Of a stretch of 45,845 nucleotides of DNA, positions 551 through 44,576 are shown in pieces; the stretch's first letter is position 1, and the number at the start of each line of letters is the position of its first letter. Source of the stretch: a virus; IMG/VR virus record IMGVR_UViG_3300045999_010396, positions 1 to 45,845 of that record. One strand, given 5' to 3'. The position numbers were made by a program, and so were the translations under genes. The notes under the pieces were generated by a model. It did not search any database and was not told the origin of the DNA. It saw only the letters and a program-made list of their open reading frames with translations.

Positions 551-1312
551 ATGAGGATTAAAATCAAAGAGGCACAACAAACGCCACAGGCGATATTCAT
601 GGCAGGCCCAGCAGGTGCAGGCAAGTCATTTATCGCCAAATCTTTGCCTCTTTCTAAATTCCAAGTTATAAATGTTGATGACACTTATGAAGAGTTACTT
701 AAGGCTTCTGGTTTAGGAATGAAACTTAAAGATTTTGGTTCTGATGAATTATCACAAGCTGCTAAGTTAATGGGTCAAGCTCAAAAAGTAACTAAGGAAA
801 AACTCAAAAAATCACTTGAAAATTTAAATGATATTATCATTGATGGTACAGGTGCGGCTTCTCGTCCTTTATTTAAGAAAAAGGCAGAATTAGAGGCTTT
901 AGGTTATGAAACTATGATGGTGATGATATATGTTTCACCTATAACTTCACTTGAACGTAATCTAGACAGGGGTGAAAATAATGGTCGTTCATTAATGCCA
1001 GGCACTGTTTTACAAACATGGGAAAAAGTGAATAGTAATATACCTATATATCAAGAAGAATTTGGTGATAATTTTATTTTAATAAATAATGATCCAAAAG
1101 ATGCTAATAAAAGTTTTGATCCACAAGAAATAAAACGTAGATTCTTTGACACTTCTAAAGCTAAAGGTAAACCAAAAACACCTGAAGAAATAGCCAAAAG
1201 AAGAGCTGAAGTAGATGCTATGAATAAGAGTATTGAACAACTAGTTAAACAACAACCAAAATTCACTTCACCAGCTGAGGCTGTTAATAAAATAAAGGCA
1301 TTTATTAAATGA
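551..1312 (+). CDS. P-loop kinase-like NTPase with putative capsid-targeting leader
   Basis: The 253-residue protein has a Walker A motif, GPAGAGKS, at residues 19-26. A phosphotransferase-like core follows, with the element IIIDGTGAASR near residues 95-105, as in AAA_33/zeta-toxin or polynucleotide-kinase-like P-loop proteins. The substrate cannot be told from sequence. The first seven residues, MRIKIKE, precede an Ala and the enzyme core starts only a few residues later. I5-K6-E7/A8 is therefore an ideal site for a T4 gp21-type prohead protease, and the leader may be a capsid-targeting peptide (inference). The C-terminal 50 residues are Lys-rich and helical. The gene overlaps the next by four bases (ATGA), which suggests translational coupling. 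Kinase identity is fairly secure; packaging is hypothetical. Confidence 0.82.
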   Translation: MRIKIKEAQQTPQAIFMAGPAGAGKSFIAKSLPLSKFQVINVDDTYEELLKASGLGMKLKDFGSDELSQAAKLMGQAQKVTKEKLKKSLENLNDIIIDGTGAASRPLFKKKAELEALGYETMMVMIYVSPITSLERNLDRGENNGRSLMPGTVLQTWEKVNSNIPIYQEEFGDNFILINNDPKDANKSFDPQEIKRRFFDTSKAKGKPKTPEEIAKRRAEVDAMNKSIEQLVKQQPKFTSPAEAVNKIKAFIK

Positions 1313-3114
1313 TAGACTTAAATACAATATTAAACGAACTAAACGAAGAGGATACTCAACAAACACCTCCAGCCATTTGTTACTATCCAGGTGGGTTTAA
1401 ACCACCACATGAAGGACATTTTGAAGTACTTAAAGATTTAGCCTCACGTCCTTATGTCACTAAAGTAATAGTATTGATTGGACATAAAACTCGTGATGGT
1501 ATAACTAAAGAACAGAGTAAACGTATTTGGGATTTATATTTAGCTACTTCTCCTATGGCTAAAGCAGTTGTAAGAATAAGTACAGATCCGTCTCCAATCA
1601 AAGATATTTTCACAGCATTTAATGATGATTTAGAGTTAAAAGCATATGTAGCCGGTGCTAAAAATGAAGTAGAAGAACAAGATTATTTCACTCCATTACA
1701 AAAAGCATTTGGTACTAGAGTAATGCCTTTACCTATTGAAGAAAAAGTAGTAACAAATAATAAACGCTTATCAGGAACTCAAGTACGTGGTTTAGTAACT
1801 AAACTTAAAGAATCAGTACTAGCTTTACGTTCAGTACCTGATAAATCATCAATTGAATATTCTAAAGCTAAAAATGAATATTTAAATAACTATAAAGAAT
1901 TAGAAGGATGTTTCCCAGAAGTTATAATACAGAAAGGTGGATTTGAAGATATACTTAAAATATTAGGAATACCAGTATTAAATGTGGACCAACTTCAAGA
2001 AAATCAAGAAGATGGTAATTTAATTATACGTGTACCTTATCGTTTAACAACTAAATTAGAGAACTATCTTAACACAATGTTGATTCCATTTGAATACTCT
2101 CAACAAGCATTTGGTGGACATGAGCGTCGTATGTTAATACCTAATTTAGGAGATAATAATGAACAGCGTGAACAAGTACTCAAATATCTATCTAAACATA
2201 ATATACCTGTTAATGTAGAAGAAGATTTATTCACTGTCAATTGGTGGAAATCAACATTAGAAGAAACACTATCAGAACCAAAAGATAAAACAGATAATAT
2301 TATAGCTGATTTTATTGATTTTACTGCTCAAGCTCTTGATTTACAAAAAGTACCTAAAATTACTTTTAGTGATGATGAGAGTTTAGCTCAAAAAATGCAC
2401 TCTTTAGGTGCTTATCAACCTAAAAATGATGAATTATTAGTTATTAAAGGATCAAGATTACCCGCTGATATTTTACGAACATTAGCTCATGAGTTAGTAC
2501 ATCGTAAACAAGCTGAAATGAGACCTTTAAAACCAGAAGATGGTAAAACAGGTTCAGAAGTAGAAAATGAGGCTAATGCTGCTGCTGGAGTATTATTAAG
2601 ACAATTTGGTAAATACAGACCAGAAATATTTTCTGAAGCAGATGCTTTAAAAGGTGATTATAAGATATATTGTGATATGGATGGTGTGTTAGTTGACTTT
2701 GATAAAGGATATAGAGAATTAACAGGCACAGAAGCTAGTTTTGATACACCAAAAGAAGAATTTTGGGAACCAATCACTAAAGCAGGAGCAGCATTTTGGA
2801 TTAAATTAAAATGGATGCCTGATGGAAAACAATTATGGGACTATATTAAACCATATAACCCAGATTTATTATCTGCTCCATCACGTGAGGAATCATCTAA
2901 AATAGGTAAACGCGTTTGGGTAAAAAGAGAATTACCAGGTACTAAACTTATTTTACGTCAAGCTGAACGTAAGCAAGAATTTTCAACACCAAACTCTATT
3001 TTAATTGATGATAGAGCTGATAATATACAACGTTGGAAAGACGCTGGTGGTGTAGGTATTTTACATACATCAGCAGCTGATACAATACAACAATTGAAAG
3101 ATTTAGGTTTATGA
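1309..3114 (+). CDS. Three-domain fusion: nucleotidyltransferase / HExxH / HAD phosphatase-like
   Basis: The 601-residue protein joins three recognisable modules. Residues 23-165 form a cytidylyltransferase-like domain with the (H)xGH signature (H34-E-G-H37) and the C-terminal SGTQVR motif (155-160), as in NMN/pantetheine-phosphate adenylyltransferases. Residues 340-425 carry HELVH (394-398), followed by the acidic stretch E417-V-E-N-E-A-N, which resembles a zincin with a downstream Glu ligand. Residues 449-601 form a HAD-like domain with D456-M-D-G and a late D567-D568, as in 5'(3')-deoxyribonucleotidases. The region between the first two modules is unassigned. NAD or nucleotide-cofactor metabolism is possible, but the fusion may act otherwise. 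The leader MIDLNTILNE fits L-x-E processing. The gene overlaps both neighbours by four bases. Confidence 0.8.
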   Translation: MIDLNTILNELNEEDTQQTPPAICYYPGGFKPPHEGHFEVLKDLASRPYVTKVIVLIGHKTRDGITKEQSKRIWDLYLATSPMAKAVVRISTDPSPIKDIFTAFNDDLELKAYVAGAKNEVEEQDYFTPLQKAFGTRVMPLPIEEKVVTNNKRLSGTQVRGLVTKLKESVLALRSVPDKSSIEYSKAKNEYLNNYKELEGCFPEVIIQKGGFEDILKILGIPVLNVDQLQENQEDGNLIIRVPYRLTTKLENYLNTMLIPFEYSQQAFGGHERRMLIPNLGDNNEQREQVLKYLSKHNIPVNVEEDLFTVNWWKSTLEETLSEPKDKTDNIIADFIDFTAQALDLQKVPKITFSDDESLAQKMHSLGAYQPKNDELLVIKGSRLPADILRTLAHELVHRKQAEMRPLKPEDGKTGSEVENEANAAAGVLLRQFGKYRPEIFSEADALKGDYKIYCDMDGVLVDFDKGYRELTGTEASFDTPKEEFWEPITKAGAAFWIKLKWMPDGKQLWDYIKPYNPDLLSAPSREESSKIGKRVWVKRELPGTKLILRQAERKQEFSTPNSILIDDRADNIQRWKDAGGVGILHTSAADTIQQLKDLGL

Positions 3115-4484: not shown

Positions 4485-5060
4485 ATGCCTTATACTCGTA
4501 AAGGAAATTGCGTATATAAAGAAACTGGTAAGAAAATGGGCTGTTCTAAAGACACAACAGCCGCTGAGAAATATATGAAAGCGTTATATGCTGCTGAAGA
4601 TGGAAATCTTAAAGAAGGATTTGAACCAGAAACAATCAATCCAGACCAACCAGAATTAGCTGTGACTATTGAGTTACCTAATCCAACACAAACAATGGCT
4701 AATTTTGTATCAACATTTTTTGCTTCCCGTACACAAGCTCATATATTCCATTTACAAGTAACAGGACCAGGCTCATATGCTAAGCATAAAGCCTTAAATA
4801 AATACTATGAAGATATTATAGATTTAATTGACGCTTTAGTTGAATCATTTCAAGGTCGTTATGGTATTATTACAGGTTATACTTGTGAAAAACAATGGAT
4901 TGAAAATCCAAATGATACTATAAAATATTTTGAGGCTTTATGCATGTATGTAGAAAAAAATCGTCATTCATTACCTCAAGATTCATATATTCAAAATCAA
5001 ATTGATGCTTTTATTGAGTTAATTGAATCAACTAAATATAAATTAGTAAATCTACAATAA
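4485..5060 (+). CDS. Dps/ferritin-like protein with N-terminal Cys element
   Basis: The 191-residue protein has a helical domain (about residues 65-190) that aligns by eye with Dps. H89-L-Q-V-T-G-P and A-K-H101-K line up with the H51 and H63 regions of E. coli Dps, and D116 and E120 with D78 and E82, at the same spacings. The Dps D67 position is Asn here. These residues form the intersubunit ferroxidase site in Dps, so iron binding and oxidation is plausible. The first 40 residues (MPYTRKGNCVYKETGKKMGC) are a separate small element with two Cys. A linker, NLKEG (L42-K-E44), could be cut by a gp21-type protease. DNA binding or protection inside the head or host is inference. I recall related ferritin-like phage proteins filed under DUF numbers, but could not check. 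Confidence 0.72.
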   Translation: MPYTRKGNCVYKETGKKMGCSKDTTAAEKYMKALYAAEDGNLKEGFEPETINPDQPELAVTIELPNPTQTMANFVSTFFASRTQAHIFHLQVTGPGSYAKHKALNKYYEDIIDLIDALVESFQGRYGIITGYTCEKQWIENPNDTIKYFEALCMYVEKNRHSLPQDSYIQNQIDAFIELIESTKYKLVNLQ

Positions 5061-7019: not shown

Positions 7020-7283
7020 ATGAGTCAACCATATACAGATCTGTTAGTGACAGATGAATATATAATTAGGGAATTTGATGAAAACATTGACCCTATAGAA
7101 TTAATGTGGCATCGAGATGATGAAAATAGGTTGGTTGAAGCTATAGAACATACAGATTGGTTAGTACAACTTGATAATCAACTACCAGTATCTATGACCC
7201 AACCAATATTTATACCACGTCATATGTGGCATAGAACTATAAAAGGTACAGGCAAATTAAAGATAAAAATATACAAATCGTGA
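7020..7283 (+). CDS. Small cupin-like conserved phage protein
   Basis: The 87-residue protein contains the pattern EYIIREFDE...PIELMWHRDDENR...WLVQLDNQLP...IFIPRHMWHR, ending in a Lys/Ile strand. His residues in WHRD and MWHR, separated by beta-like strands, suggest a single-domain cupin barrel (inference). I recall similar small proteins from diverse large phages. There is no I/L-x-E leader. The last ten codons lie in the first copy of a 32-base direct repeat, so this gene's end doubles as the start region of the next gene. It overlaps that GTG start by four bases. Confidence 0.65.
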   Translation: MSQPYTDLLVTDEYIIREFDENIDPIELMWHRDDENRLVEAIEHTDWLVQLDNQLPVSMTQPIFIPRHMWHRTIKGTGKLKIKIYKS

Positions 7284-7285
7284 AA
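7254..7285 (+). repeat. Direct repeat copy 1 (32 bp)
   Basis: This segment matches 7540-7571 over 32 bases with two differences. It ends in the start region of the gene at 7280, where the start codon is GTG; in the second copy it is ATG. The two copies bracket the whole 7280-7537 gene. Confidence 0.85.
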
Positions 7286-7537
7286 CAAAACATTAACGAA
7301 ATTAAGAAAATGCAGCGTTTAGCTGGTATTAAAATAAACGAAGCTGATGATATATTTAATAACCAACATTCAGTTAGTGATGAAAATTATAAGAAAATGG
7401 ATGGCTTAGTTAATAGAGACGATTATAATAATTTTATTAACTCAGCTACTAATATAATGCGTGATCTAACTAATGAAGGAATTGAAGTAAAAGATATATT
7501 TTATTATCTTTACACTAGATTAACAGCTGAAGTATAA
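7280..7537 (+). CDS. Small protein with RMQ-LAGI-like motif and INE/A site
   Basis: The 85-residue product starts at a GTG (7280). The N-terminus MKQNINEIKKMQRLAGI matches the C-terminal end of the scaffold protein (IRRMQQLAGI) and of the ParB-like protein (INRLKKLAGL). It is followed at once by K-I19-N-E21/A22, a good gp21-type cleavage site. The rest is helical with no known domain. Direct repeats flank the gene, so it looks like an insertion or one product of a tandem duplication. The shared motif suggests an interaction partner in the prohead core (inference). Confidence 0.65.
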   Translation: MKQNINEIKKMQRLAGIKINEADDIFNNQHSVSDENYKKMDGLVNRDDYNNFINSATNIMRDLTNEGIEVKDIFYYLYTRLTAEV

Positions 7538-15459: not shown

Positions 15460-16095
15460 ATGAAAAAGATTATTTGTTTATTAGTATTTTTAAATATTAA
15501 CATTTTTGCTATTGGGCAAGATACTATTGTTTTAAAACATACAAATTATACTTCACATTATTCTAAATCAAAAAAACATCCTGTGTTAGTTGAATGGTGG
15601 GAAACTAAAAAAAAAGTTAACTGCAAAAATCCACTACCCAGAACAGATAAATTTAAACCAGATCCTTTATTGCCAAAAGAAACTAATTTAATTAATGATT
15701 ATGTTGGAAGTGGATTTGATAGAGGACATATGATGCCAGCTAAATCAAACCAATGTCAAACTCAATTAATTTTAGATGAGTGTTTTTATTTTTCAAATAT
15801 AGCTCCTCAAACTCATAGACTAAATGCTGGTGATTGGAAATCATTAGAAATGTTAACAAGAAATTTAGCTTCTGAGTTTGACTCTGTACATGTTTGGGCT
15901 GGTAGTTTAGGAGTATTAAAAAATATGAGTAGTGTTATAGTACCAAAAGAATATTGGAAAGCAATTCATATTAAAAAAACAAATAGTTGGTTTTTCTTTT
16001 TATTTAAAAATGATGATTCTAAACCTGATGGTATTAATAATAATCAAGTTTCAAAAGAATATATTGAAAAAATAACAGGATTAAAATTTAATTAA
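15460..16095 (+). CDS. Secreted DNA/RNA non-specific endonuclease (NUC1 family)
   Basis: The 211-residue protein has a clear signal peptide (MKKIICLLVFLNINIFAIGQ) with likely cleavage near residues 19-20. The mature part carries the DRGHMMPA motif (D87-R-G-H90) of Serratia-type nucleases, with H90 as the general base. N122 and E130 follow in LNAGDWKSLE, at the same eight-residue spacing as Serratia N119/E127. S112-N-I-A-P-Q matches the other conserved block. The enzyme should cut DNA and RNA with Mg2+ in the periplasm or outside the cell. It could degrade competing or leaked DNA, or salvage nucleotides. Its stop overlaps the terminase start by one base, so it is translated with a packaging gene, which is unusual. 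Confidence 0.92.
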   Translation: MKKIICLLVFLNINIFAIGQDTIVLKHTNYTSHYSKSKKHPVLVEWWETKKKVNCKNPLPRTDKFKPDPLLPKETNLINDYVGSGFDRGHMMPAKSNQCQTQLILDECFYFSNIAPQTHRLNAGDWKSLEMLTRNLASEFDSVHVWAGSLGVLKNMSSVIVPKEYWKAIHIKKTNSWFFFLFKNDDSKPDGINNNQVSKEYIEKITGLKFN

Positions 16096-22704: not shown

Positions 22705-24378
22705 ATGACAACATTAGAATTATATCGTAAACATAAGAATGGCGAAGTTAGCCGTGAAAAATTCTTATATGAAGTAAGACGTGATAATAACTTACCATTT
22801 ATCACTAATTTAACATCATATGATGACGCAGTTAAAATCCTTAAAAACAAAGGTATTGTAACTGAAGTTGATACTAAAGAAGCTAAGGCAGATGAAGCAG
22901 TTAAAGCTGAAATTAAAGCTAAAGCTCCATCAACTAAAAAACCAAAAGAACTTCATATTGATTATGCTAACCCATATGAATATCGTCATGGTTTACAATA
23001 TGAATTAGATAAATTAGATGATTATAGTGATGAGGCTTTAGAAAAAGCTAAGTCAATTGTGTTAAAAAATTTAGCTAAAGATGCTAATTTTTATTCTAGT
23101 TTATTAAACCAACAACAATCTCATTACCAATTCAAACAAACTGAAACTGACAAGCCTGGTATGCAAGCCAATGCTGATGGTTATTTAAAGAAAGAAGCTA
23201 AAAAAGATGAGAAATCTAATGTACAAGATTCATTAGGTAAAAAAGAGGCTGGTAAGAAAAAACCTAAAGGTATTAAAATAATGCCTGATAAAGGTGTAAC
23301 TGGCTCTGAAAAAACTATTAAAGAAGGTATTGATGATAAAGTAGAGGACATGATTAAATCAGGTGAAATAAAACCTGAAGAAGTAAAGGCAGCCGCTGAA
23401 AAAGCTATGAAAGGTGATTCAACATCTCTAGTAGCATTAATGGCTGGTCTTAAATTAGCTGAGGATACTATGGAAGAAGGTATTAAAGGAAATTTTGATG
23501 ATGATGATAACACATACACTTATGATCATCTTATCAATACTGATTCTCCTAGTAAAGAACAATTAAAAAATGTATTAAACATTATAAAAAAAGATAAAGA
23601 AGATTTAGAAAAGAAAGGTAAGAAAACCAAAGTAGTTAAAGGTGACACAGTACCTTATTTAGAATTAGTTGAAACTGTTAAAGAAGATACACTTACAGAA
23701 GTAATATTAAAAATATATAATTATGATGCTTCATCAGGTGATTTAGAAGATGTTGAAGTTGAATATTTTGGATCTGAAGATGAAGCTAAAAAAGCTGCTT
23801 TAGCACACCATTGGCAAATAGCTTTTGATAATGGTGATACTGAACTTAGTAAAGATGAATTTGTAGCTCAAACTAATTTTGATGATTTAGAGTCATATGA
23901 AAATTATGATTATGTAATAGCACCTGATAAAGGTGGCATTAAAGAAGATATGGAAGAAGGCTCATTTATGGGTGGTGTTGATTTAGGTTCATCATCTGAT
24001 ATGAATGCTGAAGATCAATTCGCTCAACTAATGGACAAATATGATTGGTATTATGAGATGAGTGATGATCCAAGAGCTTATGATCGTGGTGTTGTTCTAG
24101 ACAAACAATTAAAAACATTAGGTAAACAAATTGGCGCTGATAAAGCTGTAGCTATGTTTAACGCTAAAGCTCCATCTGATCGAAAAGTGACTAATACTTT
24201 CTTTATGGAAGGAGAAGATAAACATGCTAAAATTAAAGAAGCTTTAAAAAAAGCTTTAAAAGAAGCTGATCCTACAGTGACTAAATTAGAGAAAGATATA
24301 GAGAGAAAAGAATTAGAAATGGCTGACTTAATGACTAAACAAGCTACCATACTTAAAAAACCAGGAACCCAAGGATAA
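22705..24378 (+). CDS. Prohead-region multi-linker protein
   Basis: The 557-residue protein opens with a helical module (MTTLELYRKHKNGEVSREKF, then LPFITNLTSYDDAVKILKNK). I have seen similar modules on several T4-like phage core proteins. A long Lys/Glu/Ala-rich stretch follows, including AAAEKAMKGDSTSLVALMAG and an acidic segment. Near residues 330-400 is a beta-type domain (ILKIYNYDASSGDLEDVEVE, AHHWQIAFDNGD), and the end is a coiled coil. There are many I/L/V-x-E sites in linkers. The low-complexity linkers and the position just before the protease suggest a core protein degraded on maturation. No enzymatic motif is visible. The ATG overlaps the protease start by one base at the 3' end (TAATG). 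Confidence 0.66.
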   Translation: MTTLELYRKHKNGEVSREKFLYEVRRDNNLPFITNLTSYDDAVKILKNKGIVTEVDTKEAKADEAVKAEIKAKAPSTKKPKELHIDYANPYEYRHGLQYELDKLDDYSDEALEKAKSIVLKNLAKDANFYSSLLNQQQSHYQFKQTETDKPGMQANADGYLKKEAKKDEKSNVQDSLGKKEAGKKKPKGIKIMPDKGVTGSEKTIKEGIDDKVEDMIKSGEIKPEEVKAAAEKAMKGDSTSLVALMAGLKLAEDTMEEGIKGNFDDDDNTYTYDHLINTDSPSKEQLKNVLNIIKKDKEDLEKKGKKTKVVKGDTVPYLELVETVKEDTLTEVILKIYNYDASSGDLEDVEVEYFGSEDEAKKAALAHHWQIAFDNGDTELSKDEFVAQTNFDDLESYENYDYVIAPDKGGIKEDMEEGSFMGGVDLGSSSDMNAEDQFAQLMDKYDWYYEMSDDPRAYDRGVVLDKQLKTLGKQIGADKAVAMFNAKAPSDRKVTNTFFMEGEDKHAKIKEALKKALKEADPTVTKLEKDIERKELEMADLMTKQATILKKPGTQG

Positions 24379-25007
24379 TGAGTAAACAAGTATTAATAGA
24401 ATATTTTTCATTTCAACCTTCGCCTCGTGCTCTGCATGAGGCAAAGTTGTCTCCATCTAAAAACTTAATTGTTGAAGGTGTAGTACAACGAGCTGAAGCT
24501 AAAAATCAAAATGGTAGAATATACCGTAAAGAAACATTAGAGCGTGAAGTTGAAAAATATATAGCAGGCCCAGTAGCTGAAAATAGAGCATTAGGTGAAT
24601 TAGACCATCCAGACTCATCTATTATTAACTTAAAAAATGTATGTCATAATATTAAATTATTATGGTGGGATGGTGATGATTTAATGGGTAGAATAGAAAT
24701 ATTACCAACACCAAGTGGTAATATATTAAAAGAATTATTTGTTAATAATATTACTGTTGGTATCTCTTCTCGCGGTATGGGATCTGTAAAACCATTAGGT
24801 GAAGGTACAGTTGAAGTACAAGATGATTTTGAATTATTATGTTGGGATTTTGTTTCAACACCTTCAACTCAAGGTGCTTTTATGAGACCAACAGGTTTAA
24901 GTGAAGGATTTGTTCCTAATAGCCGTTCATTTGGTAAGTATACTAAAGTAAACAATTTAATTTCTGAGATTATTTGTTCACAAACTGGAATTTGTTGTAT
25001 AAAATGA
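24378..25007 (+). CDS. gp21: Prohead maturation protease (gp21-like)
   Basis: The 209-residue protein belongs to the T4 gp21/herpesvirus-like serine protease group. The early block NLIVEGVVQRAEAKNQNGRI is typical. The catalytic His is in GELDHPDSS (H77), and the nucleophile is a Ser in VGISSRGMGS (S130 or S131). In T4, gp21 cuts prohead core, internal and capsid proteins after I/L-x-E, which is the basis for the leader predictions in this window. The first residues, MSKQVLIEYF, contain L6-I-E8, a possible self-cleavage point. The stop overlaps the next ATG (ATGA). Confidence 0.9.
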   Translation: MSKQVLIEYFSFQPSPRALHEAKLSPSKNLIVEGVVQRAEAKNQNGRIYRKETLEREVEKYIAGPVAENRALGELDHPDSSIINLKNVCHNIKLLWWDGDDLMGRIEILPTPSGNILKELFVNNITVGISSRGMGSVKPLGEGTVEVQDDFELLCWDFVSTPSTQGAFMRPTGLSEGFVPNSRSFGKYTKVNNLISEIICSQTGICCIK

Positions 25008-25795
25008 GAATAAGGATTATTAAAGAAGATGAAAATCAAGAGTTAAAGGATCTCCTAAAAATGGACTATCCTTTATTTGTTAGAGAATTAGGTGACAACA
25101 TTAAAGATCCTAAATTTATAGATGCTATCAAATCTTTATCTAATGAACATCCAATCAACTTCAAAACAGTTAATCCTATAGTTGGTGATTTAAAACCAAC
25201 TCAAAATGAAATTGATGTTGATAAATCTTTAAAATTTCCTTTAACTAACGCTGACTCAGCTAGAGTATGCCTAAAAGGAGGTGTTATAGCTGTAGCTGGT
25301 AAACGTATTATCACAGCTGGAAATGGTAAGTATATTATTGATGGTCATCATAGATGGTCTCAAGTATGTGCTTTAAATCCAGAAGCTAAAATAGCAGCTA
25401 TTGATTTATCAGATGTTGGAGACCCAATGAAAGCTCTTAAATCTACTCAATTAGGTATAGCGGCTGATTTAGGTAAAGTACCAACAGCTAAAGTTGAAGG
25501 TAATAATTTACTTAAAATGGGTAAAGATGCTCTAATTAGTTATGTTGAAAAAACAATCACACCTGATGTGATAGAAGAATTTAAAACAGCAGGTAAAGGA
25601 GATAATGCTAAATCCATTGGTGAATTTATTTGGACCAATGTTGAAAAAATGCAAAAAGATAATCAACCAGTTTCAGGCGCTCCTGAGCGTGGTATTATGC
25701 CTCAAACTGATGACGCTACTAAATGGCAAGATCTAGCTCCAAATGTTGACGATATCACTGAAATAAATCGTCTAAAAAAATTAGCGGGACTCTAA
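25004..25795 (+). CDS. ParB/sulfiredoxin-like protein with capsid-type leader and LAGL tail
   Basis: The product is 263 residues from the ATG at 25004 (overlapping the protease stop); an earlier in-frame start inside the protease gene is rejected. The ParB/Srx signature is Y-I-I-D113-G-H-H-R-W118, preceded by a substrate strand (GGVIAVAGKRIITAGNGK). ParB-fold proteins bind and hydrolyse nucleotides (CTP in ParB, ATP in sulfiredoxin), and some act as nucleases. The leader MRIRIIKEDEN gives I6-K7-E8. The last residues, ITEINRLKKLAGL, match the scaffold terminus (IRRMQQLAGI). It lies between the protease and scaffold genes and so appears embedded in prohead assembly. The function is unknown. Confidence 0.75.
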   Translation: MRIRIIKEDENQELKDLLKMDYPLFVRELGDNIKDPKFIDAIKSLSNEHPINFKTVNPIVGDLKPTQNEIDVDKSLKFPLTNADSARVCLKGGVIAVAGKRIITAGNGKYIIDGHHRWSQVCALNPEAKIAAIDLSDVGDPMKALKSTQLGIAADLGKVPTAKVEGNNLLKMGKDALISYVEKTITPDVIEEFKTAGKGDNAKSIGEFIWTNVEKMQKDNQPVSGAPERGIMPQTDDATKWQDLAPNVDDITEINRLKKLAGL

Positions 25796-25937: not shown

Positions 25938-27104
25938 ATGACTAATCAAGAATTATTTAGTCAAGCGATTGCCGACGCTAAAGCTGTTCGTGACGCTGCT
26001 GTCGCCAACGCTAAAGCCGCTCTTGAAGAGACTTTTACTCCACAAATCATGTCTATACTTTCAACTAAATTGCAAGAGTTGGAAGAAGAAGGATTAGAAG
26101 AGAAAAAAGAAGTTGAAGAAGAAGGCTACGGCAAAACAGAAGAAGGCCATGAGGCCGAAATTGGTTTTGGAGCTGCTTCACAAAAGCCACAAATTGAAGC
26201 TGACTCTTTGGAAGAAACTGACCTCGAAGAAATCTTAGCTGCACTTGAAGCCGAAGAAAAAATGAAAGAAGAAGGCGAACAAGTTGACGAAAAGAAAGAC
26301 ATGGAAGAGGCCAAGAAAGACATGGAAGAAGCTAAAAAAGAAGTTGAAGAAGGTAAAAAAGAAGTTGAGGAAGCTAAGAAAAAAGACGACGACAAGAAAA
26401 AAGTTGAAGAGTCTTTAGAAGAAGCTGACGGAGACGACGACATGACTGAATTAACTGTTGATGAGCTTAAAGACATTATCCGTGATGTGTTAAAAGATGT
26501 TATGGGTGGTGGTGAAGAAGAAGTAGGTGGAGATGAAATTGAATTGGATGGTGAAACTGGCGATGAAGAAGTTGAAGATGAAGAATCTATCAGTCTCGAT
26601 GAATTGTTAGCTGAATTAGACAAGGAAGAAGGTAAAAAGCCTGTTGATGAGAAAAAAGAAGTAGAAGAGGCTAAGAAAGAAGTTGAGGAAGGTAAAAAGA
26701 AAGAAATGGAAGAAGCTAAGAAAAAAGAAATGGAAGAAGCTAAGAAAGACAAAAAAGACTTAGAAGAAGCCATTAAAACTATCAAAGCTTTACAATCTGA
26801 ACTCAACGAAGTTAATCTTTTAAACGCTAAACTTCTCTACACAAACAAAATCTTCAAAGCTAAATCTTTGAATGAGGCCCAAAAAGTTAAAGTATTAAAA
26901 GCTTTTGATAAAGCTACTAATGTAAATGATGTTAAAACTGTTTACAATACTTTATCAGAATCATTTACTACTAAAACTAAATCTACAATTAAAGAATCAG
27001 TTGGATTTGCTTCAAAAGCAGCTGGAATTGCACCAGCCCAACCGATTGTAGAAAGCGACGCTGCTATTCGTCGTATGCAACAATTAGCAGGAATCGTAAA
27101 ATAA
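25938..27104 (+). CDS. gp22: Prohead core scaffold protein (gp22-like)
   Basis: The 388-residue protein is acidic and highly helical, with repeated KKEVEEAKK- and KKDMEEAKK-type blocks (about residues 115-160 and 235-275), as expected of a scaffold that fills the prohead and is degraded by the protease. It lies directly before the capsid gene, the gp22 place in T4, but is longer than T4 gp22 (269 residues). The C-terminal 120 residues are less repetitive and end IRRMQQLAGIVK, a motif shared with two other proteins here and possibly a capsid or core contact. The early part of the gene uses more C-ending codons (GAC, GCC, AAC) than its neighbours, typical of high expression. Confidence 0.85.
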   Translation: MTNQELFSQAIADAKAVRDAAVANAKAALEETFTPQIMSILSTKLQELEEEGLEEKKEVEEEGYGKTEEGHEAEIGFGAASQKPQIEADSLEETDLEEILAALEAEEKMKEEGEQVDEKKDMEEAKKDMEEAKKEVEEGKKEVEEAKKKDDDKKKVEESLEEADGDDDMTELTVDELKDIIRDVLKDVMGGGEEEVGGDEIELDGETGDEEVEDEESISLDELLAELDKEEGKKPVDEKKEVEEAKKEVEEGKKKEMEEAKKKEMEEAKKDKKDLEEAIKTIKALQSELNEVNLLNAKLLYTNKIFKAKSLNEAQKVKVLKAFDKATNVNDVKTVYNTLSESFTTKTKSTIKESVGFASKAAGIAPAQPIVESDAAIRRMQQLAGIVK

Positions 27105-27132: not shown

Positions 27133-28812
27133 ATGAGTACAGTTCAAACTTTAATCGAATCTGCTAACCCATGGCAGTCACAGCAAGGCGACGCTGCTCG
27201 CTTAGCTAAAAAGTGGGATAAATCAGGTTTGTTAGAAGGTCTCGCTGACTATAACAAATCTAATATGGCTGTTATGCTTGAGAATCAAGCTAAGCAGTTA
27301 GTTGTTGAACAATCACAAACTGGTACTGGTGGTACTTTTACTCCAGGTACTGGTGAGCAGTGGGCTGGTGTTGCCTTACCATTAGTTCGTAAGGTATTTG
27401 GTCAAATTGCTTCTAAAGAATTCGTTTCTGTTCAACCAATGAGTTTACCAGCTGGTTTAGTGTTCTATCTTGACTTCCAATACGGAAGCACTAAGAATCC
27501 TTTCGCTAATGGTGATTCTTTATATGGTACCCCTGATGGTGTTGAAGGATTTGGTAACCTAGCTGCTGGTGGTCTTTATGGCTCTGGCCGTTTTGGTTAT
27601 TCACTCAACCAATTCTCAGCTTCTCTTACTTTCGCTACCTCTTCTGGTGGTGCTGCTCCTTATATCTATTCTGGATCAGCAGATGCAGTTTGGGCATTAT
27701 GTGGATTTGATTCTAACATTTCTGCTTCTGTAGCTGCTCAGCAAGTTAAGATTGCTCTTATTCCAACTTCTAGTTTGTCAAACATGGATCCAAATGGTGC
27801 TCGTGGTTTCTATTTCATTTCTGCTTCTGCTGGAACTGATGTAATCACAGCTGCTGACAACTTGAATCAATTTAACCAAATTTCTGGTGCTAACGTGTTG
27901 TTATTCTTCTCAGCTTCTTCAGCTGAAGTAACAGCCGCTACTACTCAAATCGCTCCAGTTTTCTATAATAAGAAAACAGCTGATAATGCTCGTGGTGACT
28001 TTGAAGATGGTTCTTCTTATGCTTACCCTAACTCATTATCTTCTAGCGTTATTGCTATCCCAGAAATCAACGTTCAGCTTCGTTCTGAGACTATTGCTGC
28101 TAAAACTCGTAAGTTGAAAGCACAATGGACTCCAGAATTTGCTCAAGACTTGAACGCTTACCAAAACTTAGACGCTGAAGCTGAATTGACTAGCATGTTA
28201 AGTGAGTACATCTCTCTTGAGATCGACCTCGAAATCCTTGATATGTTAATTCAAAACGCTCCAATTGTTGAGTATTGGTCAGCTAAAGTTGGTGATCAAA
28301 TTAACGCTACTAACAGTGGCTTTAATAGCAACACCTCTGGTGTTTACTACACTCAAATGACTTGGTTCCAAACTTTAGGTATCAAGTTACAAAAAGTATC
28401 TAACACAATCCATCAAAGAACTTTACGTGGTGGTGCTAACTTCATGGTGGTTTCACCAGCTGTAGCTACTATCCTTGAGTCTATCCCAGGATTTGCTGCT
28501 GATACTGATGGTGCAGCTGATAACATGAAGTATGCTTTTGGTGTACAGAAAGTTGGTCAGTTGAACAGCCGTTATAAAGTTTATAAGAACCCATACATGC
28601 TCGAGAATGTTATTCTTATGGGCTTCCGTGGATCTCAGTTCTTAGAGACTGGTGCTGTTTATGCTCCATATGTACCATTGATCATGACTCCATTAGTGTA
28701 CGATCCAAATACCTTCACTCCAAGAAAAGGTATTATGACTCGTTACGCTAAGAAGATGGTTCGTCCTGAATTCTATGGTAAAGTGTTTGTTGCTAATTTG
28801 AACATTGTGTAA
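27133..28812 (+). CDS. gp23: Major capsid protein (gp23-like)
   Basis: The 559-residue protein matches T4 gp23. VSVQPMSLPAGLVFYLDFQYG corresponds to the gp23 block VQPMNSPTGQVF. The C-terminal blocks RYKVYKNPYMLENVILMGFR, YAPYVPLIMTPLVYD and TRYAKKMVRPEFYGK are family hallmarks. The first ~59 residues look like the removable propeptide. LENQAKQLVVE59/QSQTGTGG lies where T4 cuts after Glu65, and LIE9/S is a further possible site. Codons are shifted toward C-ending (AAC, TTC, ATC, GAC) relative to most neighbours, consistent with very high expression. A strong terminator follows. Confidence 0.95.
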   Translation: MSTVQTLIESANPWQSQQGDAARLAKKWDKSGLLEGLADYNKSNMAVMLENQAKQLVVEQSQTGTGGTFTPGTGEQWAGVALPLVRKVFGQIASKEFVSVQPMSLPAGLVFYLDFQYGSTKNPFANGDSLYGTPDGVEGFGNLAAGGLYGSGRFGYSLNQFSASLTFATSSGGAAPYIYSGSADAVWALCGFDSNISASVAAQQVKIALIPTSSLSNMDPNGARGFYFISASAGTDVITAADNLNQFNQISGANVLLFFSASSAEVTAATTQIAPVFYNKKTADNARGDFEDGSSYAYPNSLSSSVIAIPEINVQLRSETIAAKTRKLKAQWTPEFAQDLNAYQNLDAEAELTSMLSEYISLEIDLEILDMLIQNAPIVEYWSAKVGDQINATNSGFNSNTSGVYYTQMTWFQTLGIKLQKVSNTIHQRTLRGGANFMVVSPAVATILESIPGFAADTDGAADNMKYAFGVQKVGQLNSRYKVYKNPYMLENVILMGFRGSQFLETGAVYAPYVPLIMTPLVYDPNTFTPRKGIMTRYAKKMVRPEFYGKVFVANLNIV

Positions 28813-34994: not shown

Positions 34995-37900
34995 ATGTCT
35001 AATCAGTTTCTCAAATTACGCAGAAGTGCTATACCTGGTAAAATTCCTGACACCGGTTCTCTTGAACTTGGTGAAATAGCGCTGAATACCTATGATGGTA
35101 AAGCGTTTATGAAAAAATCTGGTTCAGCCGGTGAAGAAATAGTTACTATTGGTACTGGATTTATTAGTGGATCTAATTTTTTTCTTTCTGTATTTTCCGG
35201 TTCAGAAGCTTTAGTCTCAAGTACAATTTATCAATCTGGATCTTTCACAGCTATAAACGCTACAGGATCTTTACATCCTGAAGCAGTTGAAACTTTTTTA
35301 GTAAACTCATTAACAGATTCATATAATTTAATATCAGGACATGCTGACACAAATAATTATGTTCAGTTAAATATAAAGAATTTTAATACAGGAACTAGTG
35401 CCTCCGCAGATATTGTAGCTAGTGCTGATACAGGAAATGAAGAAGTTAACTATGTTAATTTAGGTATTAATGGTTCTGGATATAATGCTAATCAATATAT
35501 TGGTAGTGCTTTAGATGCTTACTTATATTCTACAGGTGAAAATTTATTGATAGGTAACGCCTCTCAAGGTAGACAAATTATTTTCTTTAATGGAGGTTTT
35601 GATACTGTTGACAATGCTAGATTATGGATTCATGAGCAGGGTACCATTAGTATTAACACAAGTCAATATGATTCTTTCAACCCATCATCTCTTTGGGTAG
35701 AAGGGATATCTGGATCAGATACATATAATTTAATTCAAGCTAAAGGTGATGTTAATAATTACTCTCAATTAGCTATACAAAATAGATCAACAGGAAGTAA
35801 TGCTTCTTCAGATATTGTAGCTGAAAATGATAATGCTACAGAAACTACTAATTTTATTAATTTAGGTATTAATAGTAGTAATTATAATATTACTGGTGAT
35901 GTTGGATCAGCAAATGATGCTTATTTATATTCTACAGGATATCATTTACATATAGGAAACGCTTCTAACCATCCATTACAATTTTTTGTTGGTGGTATAG
36001 ATAGTGATGCTAATAGAAAATTTCAATTAGATCCAAACAATCAACATGAACTAACTGGTTCAATTAATATAAGTGGAAGTATATATAATCCATTTATTTC
36101 TCAAAATAATTCATTATCAGGTTCTATAATAGCTGTAAATACATCTAATGGTTTATTCCAATATACTAATAATGTCTCATCTGCTTCATTTGCTTTAACA
36201 GCTTCTTATGCTTTAAACGCTGGAGCAACAGGTACAAGTGGTACAAGCGGCACATCAGGTATTAATGGTACATCAGGCACAAGTGGCATAAATGGAACAT
36301 CTGGTACAAGTGGAATCTCAGGTACATCAGGCATAAGTGGTACTAATGGAACCTCAGGTACATCAGGTACTTCAGGAACATCCGGTGCAAATGGAACTTC
36401 AGGCACTAGTGGAATTGATGGTACATCAGGCATAAGTGGAACATCTGGTACAAGCGGAATTGACGGAACATCAGGGATAAATGGTACATCAGGTACAAGT
36501 GGTATAAGTGGTACTTCAGGTACAAATGGTTCTTCAGGAAGCTCTGGACTATCAGGTAGTTCAGGCTCATCAGGATCTTCAGGTATTAATGGTACTTCTG
36601 GAACATCAGGTGAAAGTGGAACTAGTGGTATATCTGGAACATCTGGCACAACAGGTACATCAGGATCTTCAGGATCAAGTGGCATAAATGGTACTTCTGG
36701 AACTTCAGGAATTGATGGAACTAGTGGTACAAGTGGAGTGAATGGCTCATCTGGTACAAGTGGGATATCAGGCACAAGTGGAATCTCTGGAACATCAGGT
36801 ACTAATGGAACTAGTGGTTTAAGTGGTACATCTGGCACAAGTGGAACTTCTGGTATTAATGGTACTTCTGGAACTTCAGGAGTTGATGGTACAAGTGGTT
36901 CATCTGGATTAAATGGTACTTCTGGAACATCAGGTTTAAGTGGTACAACAGGTACTTCAGGTACAAGTGGTATAAGTGGTACATCTGGAACAAGTGGCAC
37001 AACAGGCACTTCAGGCACATCTGGTGTTAATGGTACTAGTGGTACTTCAGGAATATCAGGTACTAGTGGCACTTCAGGTGAATCAGGTATAGATGGTACA
37101 AATGGTACATCTGGTATAAGTGGTACTTCAGGAATATCAGGCACATCAGGTACAAGTGGAATAAATGGAACTTCTGGAACAAGTGGTTTATCAGGCAGCT
37201 CAGGATCAAGTGGTGTTTCTGGAAGCTCAGGTTCTTCAGGTTCATCAGGTATCTCAGGCACAAGTGGTACATCAGGTATAGATGGAACATCAGGTACTAG
37301 TGGTTTAACAGGAACATCTGGTACTTCAGGTACAACTGGTACTTCTGGTTCAAGTGGTTCATCTGGAATATCAGGTACCAGTGGCACAACAGGCACAAGT
37401 GGTTTGTCTGGTAGTTCAGGTACTTCTGGTTCAAGTGGAACAAGTGGTTCATCTGGAAGTTCTGGAATAAGTGGTACAAGTGGTACTTCAGGTGTAAGTG
37501 GAACATCAGGTACATCAGGTATAAATGGTACTAGTGGAACTAGTGGTAGTTCAGGTTCAAGTGGATCAAGTGGTTTAACTGGATCTTCTGGAACATCAGG
37601 ATTAACAGGCACAAGTGGAACTACTGGAACAAGCGGATCATCAGGTTCATCAGGCTCATCAGGTATTAATGGTACATCTGGTACTTCAGGAACATCTGGT
37701 AGCTCAGGCACAAGTGGAATTAATGGTACATCAGGTACTTCAGGCATAAATGGAACAAGCGGTACTAGTGGTACTTCAGGATTAACAGGTACAAGCGGTA
37801 CTAGTGGTACAAGTGGAATAAATGGTACATCAGGTACTAGTGGTACAAGTGGTGCTAATGGATCAAGTGGTACATCAGGTACATCAGGCTTAAATGGAAC

Positions 37901-40900
37901 ATCAGGTTCAAGTGGCACAAGTGGTATTAATGGCTCCTCAGGTACAAGCGGAATTAATGGTACTAGTGGCACTAGTGGCTTATCAGGAGCTTCAGGTACA
38001 TCTGGTACATCTGGTATTTCAGGTACTAGTGGTACTAGTGGTTCATCTGGATCAAATGGATCATCAGGTAGTTCTGGATCTAGTGGTACATCAGGCATAA
38101 ATGGAACATCAGGTACAAGTGGTTTAAGTGGTAGCTCAGGTACATCAGGCACTTCAGGAGTATCAGGTACATCTGGTACTTCAGGTACTTCAGGAGTATC
38201 TGGATCATCAGGTACATCTGGTACTTCAGGTGTGAGTGGAACAAGTGGTACTTCTGGAACTAATGGAACTTCAGGTGTATCAGGAACATCTGGTACAAGT
38301 GGTACTTCAGGATCATCTGGATCATCTGGATCAAGTGGATCTAGTGGTTTAAGTGGAACATCAGGAACAACTGGAACCTCTGGTACTAATGGAAGTTCAG
38401 GCTCATCAGGTTTAAGTGGTACTTCAGGCACAAGTGGAACATCAGGAACAACTGGAACATCTGGAACTAGTGGTTCTTCAGGATCATCAGGTATAAGTGG
38501 AACATCAGGTACATCAGGCGTAAACGGAACAAGTGGCACTTCAGGTACATCAGGAATTAATGGAACATCAGGTACATCAGGTGCATCAGGCACTTCAGGT
38601 ACATCAGGTATAAACGGAACAAGTGGTACAAGCGGAACTAGGGGTTCATCTGGATCATCTGGTAGTTCAGGATCAAGTGGGTCAAGTGGAACTTCTGGAA
38701 CAAACGGTACTAGTGGAACTAGTGGTTCATCTGGATCAAGTGGATCTAGTGGAACAAGTGGCACATCAGGTACAACTGGAACATCTGGGACTAGTGGAGT
38801 AAGTGGAACAAGCGGTACATCAGGAACATCAGGTGCAAATGGTACATCTGGATCATCAGGTACATCTGGTACATCTGGTACTTCAGGAGCTAGTGGCACT
38901 AGTGGTACTTCACCAACCGGATTAGTAGCGTCTAACTATGTTGTTAGAGGTACTAAACAAGGCGGTGCTCAAACTATACCAAATGGTGGTGATACTGTTG
39001 TAACGTTTAGTGACGACTTTGATCCTAATGGATGGTTAACCTCTAATAAAATTCAACCAACTATTGCTGGTTATTATATAACTAATGCTCAAGTTTGGTG
39101 GGATGCTGGTTCTGTAACTAACAACCAAACCAATATCCAATTTAAGAAAAATGGAACAACCCAAGTTGCGATAAATCAAACCCAAATTCTATCTGGCTCA
39201 GGTTATGCACAAGAAATAGATGCTATAATTTATTTTAATGGTTCAACAGATTATGTAGAAGTTACTGCTTTTACAGGTAATCCTACATCTCAAAATATAA
39301 ATTCTGCTGGAAGCGGAACTTGGTTTGAAGCATCTTTAATTGTTGGTGGTGGTACTTCTGGTACAGCTGGATCTAGTGGTAGTTCAGGTAGTTCAGGTAC
39401 ATCAGGTATAAATGGTACTAGTGGAACAAGTGGAGCAAATGGTACAAGTGGTACATCTGGAGCTAATGGAACATCAGGTACTTCTGGTACTAGAGGTTCT
39501 TCAGGTAGTTCTGGCTCATCTGGATCTAGTGGTTCATCAGGTTCTAGTGGTACAAGTGGTACATCAGGAACTTCTGGAGCTAATGGAACATCAGGTACAA
39601 GTGGTATAAATGGTACAAGTGGATCTTCAGGAACATCAGGTGTAAGTGGAACATCAGGTACATCAGGCACATCAGGAACTAATGGCACATCAGGTACATC
39701 AGGTGCATCAGGCACTTCAGGTACATCAGGTATAAACGGAACAAGTGGTACATCTGGCACTAGTGGAGTAAATGGAACAAGTGGTACATCAGGCACAAGC
39801 GGTACATCAGGTACCTCAGGCACATCAGGAGCAAATGGAACCAGTGGAACATCAGGTGCTAATGGTAGTAGTGGGACAAGCGGTTCATCAGGAACAAGTG
39901 GAATTAATGGTACATCAGGTACTTCTGGAACTTCAGGAGCAAGTGGTACATCAGGTACATCAGGTATAAATGGCACAAGTGGTACTTCAGGAGCAAATGG
40001 TACAAGCGGCACAAGTGGTACTAGTGGTGTAAACGGAACAAGTGGTACAAGTGGTACTAGTGGTGTGAACGGAACAAGTGGTACAAGTGGTACTCGAGGA
40101 TCATCTGGTTCAAGTGGATCAAGTGGTAGCTCAGGCTCATCTGGCACAAGTGGTACATCAGGTACTTCTGGAACAAATGGTAGTTCTGGTTCAAGTGGAT
40201 CATCAGGTTCTAGTGGTACAAGTGGAGCTAATGGAACATCTGGTTCTTCAGGAACTAGTGGCGCTAATGGTACAGCTGGCACTTCTGGTACATCAGGTGT
40301 AAATGGAACATCAGGTACAAGTGGTACATCAGGAGCTAATGGAACACCAGGTACATCTGGAACGTCAGGAGCTAATGGTACTAGTGGAACTTCAGGCACT
40401 AGTGGTGTGAATGGAACAAGCGGAACTTCAGGTACAAGTGGTGTCAATGGTACAAGTGGTACAAGCGGTACTCGGGGATCATCTGGCTCAAGTGGATCAT
40501 CAGGTACATCAGGTGTGAATGGTACATCTGGTACATCAGGCACAAGTGGTGCTAATGGTACAAGTGGTACCAGTGGAACTAGTGGAGTAAATGGCACATC
40601 AGGCACTTCAGGAACATCAGGTATAAATGGTACAAGTGGTACTAGTGGAACAAGAGGTTCTTCAGGATCAAGTGGCTCATCCGGATCATCTGGATCATCT
40701 GGTAGTTCAGGATCAAGTGGATCAAGCGGTACATCAGGTACATCTGGTATAAATGGAACATCAGGTACATCTGGAACTAGTGGTATAAATGGTACAAGTG
40801 GTACTTCAGGTACTAGTGGCATAAATGGTACCTCTGGAACTAGTGGTACATCAGGCGCGAATGGTACAAGTGGCACAAGTGGAACTAGAGGATCATCAGG

Positions 40901-43900
40901 TTCAAGCGGTTCATCTGGATCCTCAGGTAGCTCAGGTTCAAGTGGATCAAGTGGAACTTCTGGAACAAGTGGTACTAGTGGAGCCAATGGTACAGCTGGT
41001 ACATCAGGAACAAGCGGAGCTAACGGAACCTCTGGTACATCAGGTACAAGTGGCGCTAATGGAACTTCAGGTACATCTGGAACATCAGGTGTTAATGGTA
41101 CAAGTGGTACTTCAGGTACTTCTGGCGCAAATGGAACAAGTGGTACAAGTGGTACTCGGGGATCATCTGGCTCAAGTGGCTCATCAGGTTCATCTGGTTC
41201 AAGTGGTACAAGCGGAGCTAATGGTACAGCTGGTACAAGTGGTACTTCAGGAGCAAATGGTACAAGCGGCACAAGTGGTACTAGTGGTGTAAACGGAACA
41301 AGTGGAACTTCAGGTACAAGTGGCGCTAATGGAACTTCAGGTACATCTGGAACATCAGGTGCTAATGGTACATCTGGAACATCAGGTACAAGAGGATCAT
41401 CTGGTTCAAGTGGTTCATCAGGCTCATCAGGTAGCTCAGGTTCTTCAGGTTCTTCAGGTTCTAGTGGTACATCTGGAGCTAATGGTACTAGTGGAACTTC
41501 AGGTACTAGTGGAGCCAATGGTACATCAGGTACTAGTGGTACATCAGGCATAAATGGTACCTCTGGAACTAGTGGTACATCAGGCGCGAATGGTACAAGT
41601 GGCACAAGTGGAACTAGAGGATCATCAGGTTCAAGCGGTTCATCTGGTTCAAGTGGATCATCAGGCTCAAGTGGTTCATCTGGTACATCTGGAGCCAATG
41701 GAACTTCAGGTACAAGTGGCACATCAGGTATTAATGGCACATCAGGTACATCTGGAACCAGTGGTGCTAATGGAACAAGTGGTACTAGTGGAACTAGGGG
41801 TTCTTCAGGTTCAAGTGGTTCATCTGGATCATCAGGCAGTTCAGGATCTTCTGGTTCAAGTGGTACTTCAGGTACAAGTGGTGCAAATGGTACTTCAGGT
41901 ACTTCAGGTACGTCTGGAGCCAATGGAACTTCAGGTACAAGCGGTACTAGTGGAGCTAATGGAACTTCAGGCACTTCAGGTACAAGTGGAGCTAATGGCA
42001 CAAGTGGTACAAGCGGTACTCGGGGATCATCTGGTTCAAGTGGAAGTTCTGGTTCAAGTGGATCATCAGGATCTAGTGGTTCATCTGGTACATCAGGTAT
42101 AAATGGCACATCAGGTACATCTGGTACATCTGGAATAAATGGTACTAGTGGAACCAGTGGTACATCTGGAGCTAATGGTACTTCTGGAACATCAGGTACT
42201 AGTGGAATTAATGGAACAAGTGGTACTAGCGGAACTAGAGGATCATCTGGTAGTTCAGGCTCATCTGGTTCAAGTGGATCATCAGGAGCTAATGGTTCAA
42301 GTGGTACTTCAGGTACTAGTGGAGCCAACGGTACCTCTGGTACTAGTGGTACATCAGGAGCTAATGGTACAAGTGGCACATCAGGTACTTCAGGTATAAA
42401 TGGTACCTCTGGTACTAGTGGTACTCGGGGATCATCTGGTTCAAGTGGATCATCAGGCTCAAGTGGTTCATCTGGTACATCAGGTATAAATGGCACAGCT
42501 GGTACAAGTGGTACTAGTGGAGCTAATGGCACAAGTGGTACTTCAGGTACAAGTGGAGCTAATGGAACTTCAGGCACTTCAGGTACATCTGGTGCTAATG
42601 GTACAAGCGGTACATCTGGAACTAGAGGATCTTCAGGTTCAAGTGGTAGTTCAGGCTCATCAGGATCTAGTGGAACATCTGGAACTAGTGGTACTTCTGG
42701 AGCTAATGGAACTTCAGGTACAAGTGGTACTAGTGGGGCTAATGGTACAGCTGGTACTTCAGGTACCTCTGGAGCTAATGGCACAGCAGGCACATCTGGA
42801 ACATCAGGAGTTAATGGTACAAGTGGTACTAGTGGTACTCGGGGATCATCTGGCTCAAGTGGTTCATCAGGATCTAGTGGGTCATCAGGTTCAAGTGGTA
42901 CAAGCGGAGCTAATGGTACATCTGGCACATCTGGAACTTCTGGAGCTAATGGTACAGCAGGTACAAGTGGTACTTCAGGAGCAAATGGTACAAGCGGTAC
43001 TAGTGGAACAAGAGGTTCTTCTGGATCAAGTGGTTCATCTGGATCATCAGGTAGTTCAGGCTCTTCAGGATCTAGTGGTACATCAGGAGCAAACGGTACT
43101 TCAGGTACTTCAGGAACTAGTGGAGCTACAGGAGCTGCTGGTACATCAGGTACTAGTGGAGCTGGTACAATAAGTGGTACATTAAATTATGTGGCTAAAT
43201 TCACACCTAACACTACTACTGTTGGAGATAGTCAAATATTTGATAATGGTACAAATGTTGGTATAGGTACCTCATCACCAGATGCTAAACTAAGAGTAGC
43301 TGGCCCAAGTAATTCAACACAAGCAATTTTTGGAAATGTAGATAGTAGAGGATTAGCTATTTCTACTGTTTTAGTTGCTGGTACAAATGAAGGTGGAAGT
43401 ATTTTAAATGCAAGATCAACTGTTAATAGTGCCGCTTTAATTATACAGACAGACGGAACTGAACAAGCGAGATTTGATGGTACAACTAGTAATGTTGGTA
43501 TTGGTACTACATCTCCTACAGAAAAGCTTCATGTAGTAGGAGGAAATATAAAAGTAAACAATACTTACGCTATGTACTTTGGAGATTCTGCCAATAATAA
43601 TGGAGGTAGAATATATATTCCTGTATCAAGTAATGACTTTGTTATTGATCAAGCTAATAATGCTTCATTATTGTTTGTCACAAATGGTGGCACTAGAATG
43701 ACAATACTTGGTGGTGGTAATGTTGGTATAGGAACTACATCACCAACTTCAGGTAAATTACAAACAGTCATAGGAGGAGATGGAGCGGGCATAACATTAG
43801 AAAGAACAGCTGGTGGATTTTTCACAGGACATGGATTTTCAAGTAGTAACCCATATTTCACTTATTATGCAACAAGTCAATTTGTAATTGGATATGGAAC

Positions 43901-44576
43901 TTCTACTGGAGCAGCTCCAAGTACAAACACATTAATATTAAAAAATACTGGTCAAGTACAATTACCTCAGTATACTTCAACTACATCATTCACAGGTACA
44001 GCTGCTGGTGTGCTTGCATTTGATTCATCAGGTAATGTTTTAACAATTGCAACACCAGGAGGTGGTGGATCAACAACAGGTAATATAATACTCACAGCAG
44101 CAGGTGGATGGCCTTCATTAACTAATGGTTGTCAACCTCCGCAATCAGCGCAAACAACAACTAACCAAGTCAATTTTTATTTCTTAGGATTTTTAGATGG
44201 AGCAACAACTACATATGCTAACTGGTCATTACCAATGCCATCAGATTATAATGGTGGAACTATTACTGCAAAATTTTATTGGGTTGCAGGTAACGCATCA
44301 ACAAACTCTGTAGTTTGGGGATTACAAGCGCGAGCTTACGCTGATGGTGATTTGTTAGACCAAGCTTTTGGTACAGCTCAGGAAGTAACAGATGCAAACC
44401 AAGCTAATGATGATGTAAATATATCAGCATCAACTTCAGCAATAACAATAGGTGGAACACCAGCTGCGGGAAACTTTGTTCAATTTAGAGCGTATAGAAA
44501 CCCTGCGGCAGCTGGTGATACATTAGCAGCAACAGCAGAATTACTTTCTATACATATAACTTATACAAAAGCGTAA
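34995..44576 (+). CDS. Giant collagen-like tail-fibre protein (3193 aa)
   Basis: The N-terminus [20 protein letters not shown], then [11 protein letters not shown] is the usual phage fibre attachment block. Residues 108-190 and 242-325 are two copies of one domain, about 134 residues apart (D-S/T-YNLI ... DAYLYSTG ... IGNAS). Gly-x-y triplets, mostly [12 protein letters not shown] and GVN, fill residues 412-1306 and 1453-2723. Between them, residues 1307-1452 form a globular domain ([24 protein letters not shown]) that resembles a C1q/TNF-type jelly roll. The C-terminus has three NVGIG(T)TSP elements, known from fibre tips, then a beta-rich end. It probably trimerises as a very long, flexible fibre for host binding. 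Proline is nearly absent from the triplets. Confidence 0.88.
36228..38910 (+). repeat. Gly-x-y coding repeat tract 1
   Basis: About 895 residues of Gly-x-y triplets within the fibre gene. GTS and GSS dominate, with single-triplet variants such as GIN, GID, GVN, GLS, GIS and GAN at irregular spacing. The synonymous codons for Thr and Ser vary from unit to unit. One GTRG(SSG)n block occurs near the end. Confidence 0.95.
39351..43164 (+). repeat. Gly-x-y coding repeat tract 2, with 36-bp unit
   Basis: About 1270 residues of Gly-x-y triplets. This tract is more regular than the first. A 12-residue unit (GAN/GIN/GVN then three GTS; 36 bp) alternates with about fifteen GTRG(SSG)n blocks. The blocks divide the tract into modules of roughly 40-120 residues. 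Nucleotide copies are similar but not identical. Confidence 0.95.

Follow-up and report, generated by a model that had tools for sequence, protein, structure and literature searches.

Why does a T4-like phage carry a gene for a protein of the ParB/sulfiredoxin (ParB/Srx) fold between its prohead protease and its scaffold, and why does this protein end like the scaffold? In T4, genes 21 and 22 have no other gene between them, and a ParB/Srx-fold cargo as proposed here has no counterpart at that place. The gene in question lies at 25004-25795 (263 aa) of the window, i.e. the whole 45,845-nucleotide stretch of DNA analysed (IMG/VR virus record IMGVR_UViG_3300045999_010396); this gene and its motifs, the three head genes next to it and the tag at 7307-7330 are all on the plus strand. 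It is preceded by the gp21-type prohead protease (S77; 24378-25007; Pfam PF03420, 1.6e-29; PHROG 207, head maturation protease, 1.4e-53) and followed by the gp22-like scaffold (25938-27104; assigned by its position before Gp23 and by tagged homologues) and the major capsid protein Gp23 (MCP; 27133-28812; Pfam PF07068, 1.9e-76). The ATG of the ParB-fold gene overlaps the protease stop codon (ATGA); a TTG at 24974 is an overlap extension, and the ATG at 25004 is backed by the relatives. A preliminary description of this DNA had placed the frame between protease and scaffold and had stated that T4 has no such gene; the flanking matches bear out the first point and the T4 gene order the second.

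The protein starts with the leader MRIRIIKE/ (25004-25027; slashes mark predicted cuts), which ends in an I-x-E site and whose residues 1-7 have a pLDDT below 50. It ends in ITE/INRLKKLAGL, with the predicted protease site ITE at 25754-25762 and the scaffold-like tag at 25763-25792 (last stretch DDITEINRLKKLAGL). The scaffold ends in IVE/SDAAIRRMQQLAGIVK (longer stretch IVESDAAIRRMQQLAGIVK), with the predicted protease site IVE at 27045-27053 and the C-terminal tag RMQQLAGI at 27072-27095, which RLKKLAGL of the ParB-fold protein matches. Thus the I-x-E leader and the scaffold-like end noted earlier are both present, and the positions of the end motif go beyond chance, as set out below. The internal proteins of T4 are directed to the core by their propeptides, and L/I-x-E is the site after which gp21 cuts (PMC9026906). 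T4 IPI-IPIII and Alt have a short N-terminal propeptide ending in L/I-x-E, are cut by gp21 and are carried as cargo in the head (PMC9026906); the same is predicted here from the genes. The sites MRIRIIKE and ITE, together with the gp21-type protease at 24378-25007, are the features of a gp21-processed internal head protein, and by the logic of the T4 propeptides leader and scaffold-like tail would draw the protein into the prohead and both ends would be trimmed. In contrast, the T4 capsid targeting sequence (CTS) is N-terminal and 10-19 residues long, whereas the scaffold-tail tag is found here at either end. From gene order, leader and scaffold-like end, we regard it as fairly probable that the ParB-fold protein is packaged cargo sorted by its tags; this is the best reading, and in this form the earlier idea of a prohead protein stands.

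The AlphaFold model (pLDDT 91.6) has the alpha+beta fold of the ParB/Srx type. Foldseek alone gave no match in the PDB at E <0.001; its rows to GroEL and others were set aside as unrelated. In a second-look PDB alignment the top rows were SerK (5x0b, Z 5.0), ParB (4.9), 1vk1 (4.9), SbnI (4.7) and plant AtSrx (4.4), Z values that are modest, yet these rows agree on a single superfamily. ParB/Sulfiredoxin entries also came first in a BFVD search, and a profile search of PDB sequences matched only the SerK group, via IVDGHHRW (E 0.28-0.5). With ParB and sulfiredoxin both among the top PDB matches, the previously proposed fold is upheld. The motif on which that proposal was based, IIDGHHRW (box II, residues 111-118; 25334-25357), is invariant in 29 aligned members and includes the active-site arginine of the superfamily (R117). 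Equally invariant are P65, Q67 and S75 of box I (P65-T-Q67 ... S75; 25196-25228), K109, N212 and the family-specific R229-x-x-M232-P233-Q234 (25688-25705). The close relatives are under purifying selection (dN/dS 0.17-0.28 against three of them). Pfam ParBc_2 (PF08857) scored 12.6 bits, under its gathering cut-off of 23.6, and matched 18 of 30 members at E up to 0.1 (best 2e-4). Neither Pfam nor PHROG assigns a function to the family; PHROG 2859 is listed as of unknown function. No Pfam match to a parS-binding HTH or C-terminal dimer domain was obtained; the model shows a helical C-terminal half.

Membership in three known groups was considered and rejected. The SerK/SbnI free serine kinases provide the best structural row and share a nearly identical octapeptide, I[IV]DGHHRW. 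However, Glu30 in P-H-E, the catalytic residue of SerK, corresponds in the motif alignment to the invariant Gln67 in P-T-Q, and the C-terminal region with R-x-x-MPQ is different; a PDB variant with Gln at SerK position 30 (5x0j) reads as an E30Q mutant. ParB CTPases share the fold and a P-x-Q box I, with Gln67 at the place of Gln52 of M. xanthus ParB, but the catalytic Glu93 of their GERRxRA motif is His115 in GHHRW, and the Pfam search returned no ParB HTH. The catalytic Cys of sulfiredoxin lies in GGCHR; the family has no Srx Cys and carries the invariant His of GHHR at this position. Because the catalytic residues of SerK, ParB CTPases and Srx are each partly kept or absent, the proteins form a separate family of the ParB/Srx superfamily, which is probably nucleotide-binding.

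Relatives gathered from IMG/VR, GTDB genomes and phage records gave 89 members with unique cores. The majority are located in other parts of their genomes than the gp21-gp22 spacer: near terminase and portal, after the MCP, or far away, several being far from head genes, as in the cultured Microcystis phage Mel-JY01. A synteny survey of this spacer, suggested in the preliminary description, covered 114 unique protease-scaffold spacers, of which 67 were empty (<350 bp), 9 held the ParB-fold family and 38 held other genes. Many of these other genes start either with a leader, for example MENFDLKKYLAEG, or with the LAG tag, for example MSKQFITEAKRMQKLAGIIAE; some have neither, for instance the membrane-like proteins of 75 aa that recur in spacers of marine loci. 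The slot seems to serve as a landing site for accessory genes, of which many resemble cargo. A 123-aa protein with no obvious leader (MEELASILxHSRTQAHxFHLG...) also recurs in spacers (L084 9657-10028, L092 9652-10023, L098 6347-6718), and a similar stretch is encoded in the window at 4485-5060.

These surveys bear on an unlikely alternative, that the protein is a core or morphogenesis protein like T4 gp67/gp68, which would aid scaffold assembly, be broken down afterwards and play no part after injection, its ParB fold only binding nucleotide or protein. Its position between protease and scaffold and its scaffold-like end fit this, as does the copurification of T4 internal proteins with gp22 (PMC9026906). 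However, the family is absent from 105 of the 114 spacers, its members lie elsewhere in other genomes, and the invariant active-site-like residues are more enzyme-like than expected of an assembly part.

If the protein is packaged cargo, what would it do? In the same reading frame as a ParB/DGHHRW domain we found a zeta kinase (L039 7161-8351) and a cytidylyltransferase-like region (L282 3811-6771), and these combinations point to nucleotide chemistry. By eye, L212 5006-9136 joins such a domain to an ADP-ribosyltransferase-like region. An NTPase or phosphotransferase activity of the mature protein is possible, although we hold this part of the reading only tentatively. Alternatively, the cargo could be a virion-delivered ParB-like DNase or nickase that cuts host or rival DNA, as proposed for the DdrB-like ParB domains of P1. 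There is precedent for ParB-like domains in virions in P1 DdrB (PMC5512222, PMC9024508), which was found in P1 heads by mass spectrometry (PMC9024508), and both DNase and NTPase activities have been reported for ParB/Srx domains (PMC5512222). The P1 domains resemble the present protein in the ParB/Srx domain, the late-gene context and the carriage in the phage head, which is predicted here (PMC5512222). Yet the P1 protein is large and has an MPTase domain, whereas here we find the DGHHRW motif and gp21-type processing sites. The DdrB-like ParB model was not among the Pfam families matched at E up to 0.1 by the 30 members, which leaves room for a distant relation, and the authors of PMC5512222 see the key function rather in the sensing or degradation of NTPs. 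A nuclease is therefore quite unlikely.

The scaffold-like end is not confined to this protein. Among 8,488 unique ORFs there were 128 matches to the tag in its strict form, R[MLFW]x[KQREH][LI]A[GN][IL]. Of these, 107 lay at the C-terminal end, 19 near the N-terminal end and 2 inside, compared with 0.33 matches in all in shuffled proteins. A looser form gave, over all loci, 190 matches at C-termini, 69 near N-termini and 11 elsewhere, several of these 11 being miscalled starts or fused genes; 40 permuted motifs gave means of 0.75, 1.4 and 2.5, respectively. Since the loci had been gathered largely through head genes, IMG/VR was independently scanned for any DNA coding of RMQKLAGI without reference to such genes. 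Among the matches listed there were at least 116 unique ones, of which 113 were terminal (89 C-terminal, 24 N-terminal) and 3 other. Of 114 unique homologous scaffolds, 106 have the tag at the C-terminus; the other 8 have a variant of it or a cut-off end. Cultured phages with the tag in head genes are immuto, Mel-JY01 and RM378; in Flavobacterium phage vB_FspM_immuto the scaffold ends in VSRWQKLAGIIK and the gene at 111675-112139 starts with MKKQILSEQFRRMQKLAGIITESQ. With the tag removed, 92 tagged non-scaffold proteins fell into about 53 blast families, and 10 of 10 N-tagged proteins scanned had no Pfam match. Gp23 was seen in only 1 of 17 tagged records, nearly all of which are fragments, so the link of the N-terminal tag to head genes is based on loci anchored by the protease and the MCP. 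In the window, the small ORF 7280-7537 has the N-terminal tag KMQRLAGI (7307-7330) between INE sites, MKQNINEIKKMQRLAGIKINE, and is a second tagged cargo candidate. A partial literature search, in which the peptide is not searchable as such, found no published description of the tag.

On scaffolds the tag is C-terminal; on cargo candidates it stands at either end, beside [LIV]xE sites. Such a site follows 36 of 41 N-terminal tags (background 0.43) and precedes 34 of 41 (background 0.34), and it precedes 98 of 119 C-terminal tags (background 0.42). The p-values of these counts are too small, the sequences being related; despite this we take as telling that for 22 of the 41 N-terminal tags the site follows at one fixed offset. 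A lone [LIV]xE site is weak evidence, since 26 of 42 window genes have one in their first 28 aa when about 16 are expected by chance. I/L-x-E leaders are also seen on the products of 551-1312 (zeta-toxin-like kinase, Pfam 1.8e-12) and 1309-3114 (nucleotidyltransferase-like by eye, GGFKPPHEGHF), which are further candidates for packaged enzymes.

The fixed offset would also suit the view that the terminal LAG motif serves the protease only, for recognition or autocleavage, and is not a sorting signal. We consider this very unlikely: the scaffold tag is the extreme C-terminus, past the last I-x-E site in most cases, and cutting by T4 gp21 requires only L/I-x-E.

Within the ParB-fold family the tag moves. 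On a tree of the core domain (72 rows) it is C-terminal in 17, N-terminal in 9 and absent in 46, and it changes end or is lost at least 11 times. The clade of the window protein is C-tagged, the nearby pair L217/L218 is N-tagged, and other close relatives have leaders only; the 46 without a tag may use the leader alone. The models of the window protein and of L270, an N-tagged relative, both place the tag outside the confident core, in an end of low confidence: the C-terminal helix 248-260 of the former sits in a stretch with a mean pLDDT of 61-66, and the tag helix of L270 is likewise outside. In L217 3012-4019, L006 7929-9503, L036 7785-9065 and L268 5671-7407 the ParB-fold protein is fused in frame to a second protein, and a further leader or tag lies inside the fusion, which would be expected if the two proteins were separated by the protease.

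Several findings count against packaged cargo: the 46 of 72 relatives without a tag; the several relatives that lie far from head genes; the commonness of [LIV]xE by chance; the catalytic residues of known enzymes, which are only partly kept; and the 24 of 45 records with the family that had no S77 match, several of them >100 kb. The other 21 records do have an S77 protease, which counts in favour, and many of the 45 are fragments. In the literature we found no virion proteomics or cleavage data for any relative, and no virion proteomics for Immutovirus or Mel-JY01. That the protein is a cytoplasmic accessory protein whose end motifs are chance or inherited remnants would suit the many relatives that lack the LAG tag and lie away from head genes, but is highly improbable given the position statistics and the swapping of the tag.

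As packaged cargo, the protein would be one of the accessory proteins inside the head of a far-T4 phage, made as a precursor with a capsid-targeting-type leader and a C-terminal scaffold-mimicking tag, which would let it join the prohead core. The tag would probably bind the partner of the scaffold tail, i.e. the inner shell or core. The gp21-type protease would then cut at I-x-E and remove both tags, and the mature ParB/Srx-fold domain (about residues 9-253) would stay in the head and be ejected with the DNA. Most likely it would bind nucleotide in the P-x-Q/DGHHRW pocket, and its action in the newly infected cell could be that of an NTPase or phosphotransferase, which we favour over a DNase.

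Two other window genes may be mentioned. The frame at 34995-44576 encodes a 3193-aa collagen-like protein, mostly of GTSGTSG-type repeats and a probable tail fibre. A DNA/RNA non-specific endonuclease (15460-16095; Pfam 4.4e-37) with a signal-peptide-like N-terminus directly precedes the terminase gene.

Taken alone, the ParB-fold protein adds a further member to a known theme. What is new, and our main result, is the apparently removable scaffold-mimicking tag that moves between ends and families; the preliminary description had the scaffold-like end, which now emerges as a widespread tag on unrelated proteins that swaps ends within the ParB-fold family. Its occurrence at the ends of dozens of phage proteins that are not related to each other points to a general signal for loading, and its part in sorting we infer from this distribution. 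We think it likely that far-T4 phages sort proteins into the prohead by a second code in addition to the N-terminal CTS. This code would be a removable octapeptide with the pattern R-[MLFW]-x-x-[LI]-A-[GN]-[IL], a copy of the C-terminal tail of the scaffold that functions at both the N- and the C-terminus of cargo and is cut off by the gp21-type protease; it would have moved between unrelated protein families, more than 50 in number and the ParB-fold family included. In engineered P22 particles cargo is loaded via a scaffold-derived end, by fusion to the scaffold; unlike this, the tag described here is natural, short, apparently removable and found at either end.

If this is true, the proteins that uncultured T4-like phages inject, most of them without annotation, could be predicted by a short sequence search. 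It would also allow a ready test of the way in which scaffold tails recruit cargo, and would provide a removable tag for loading engineered phage capsids and a virion-borne ParB/Srx family with measurable nucleotide chemistry.
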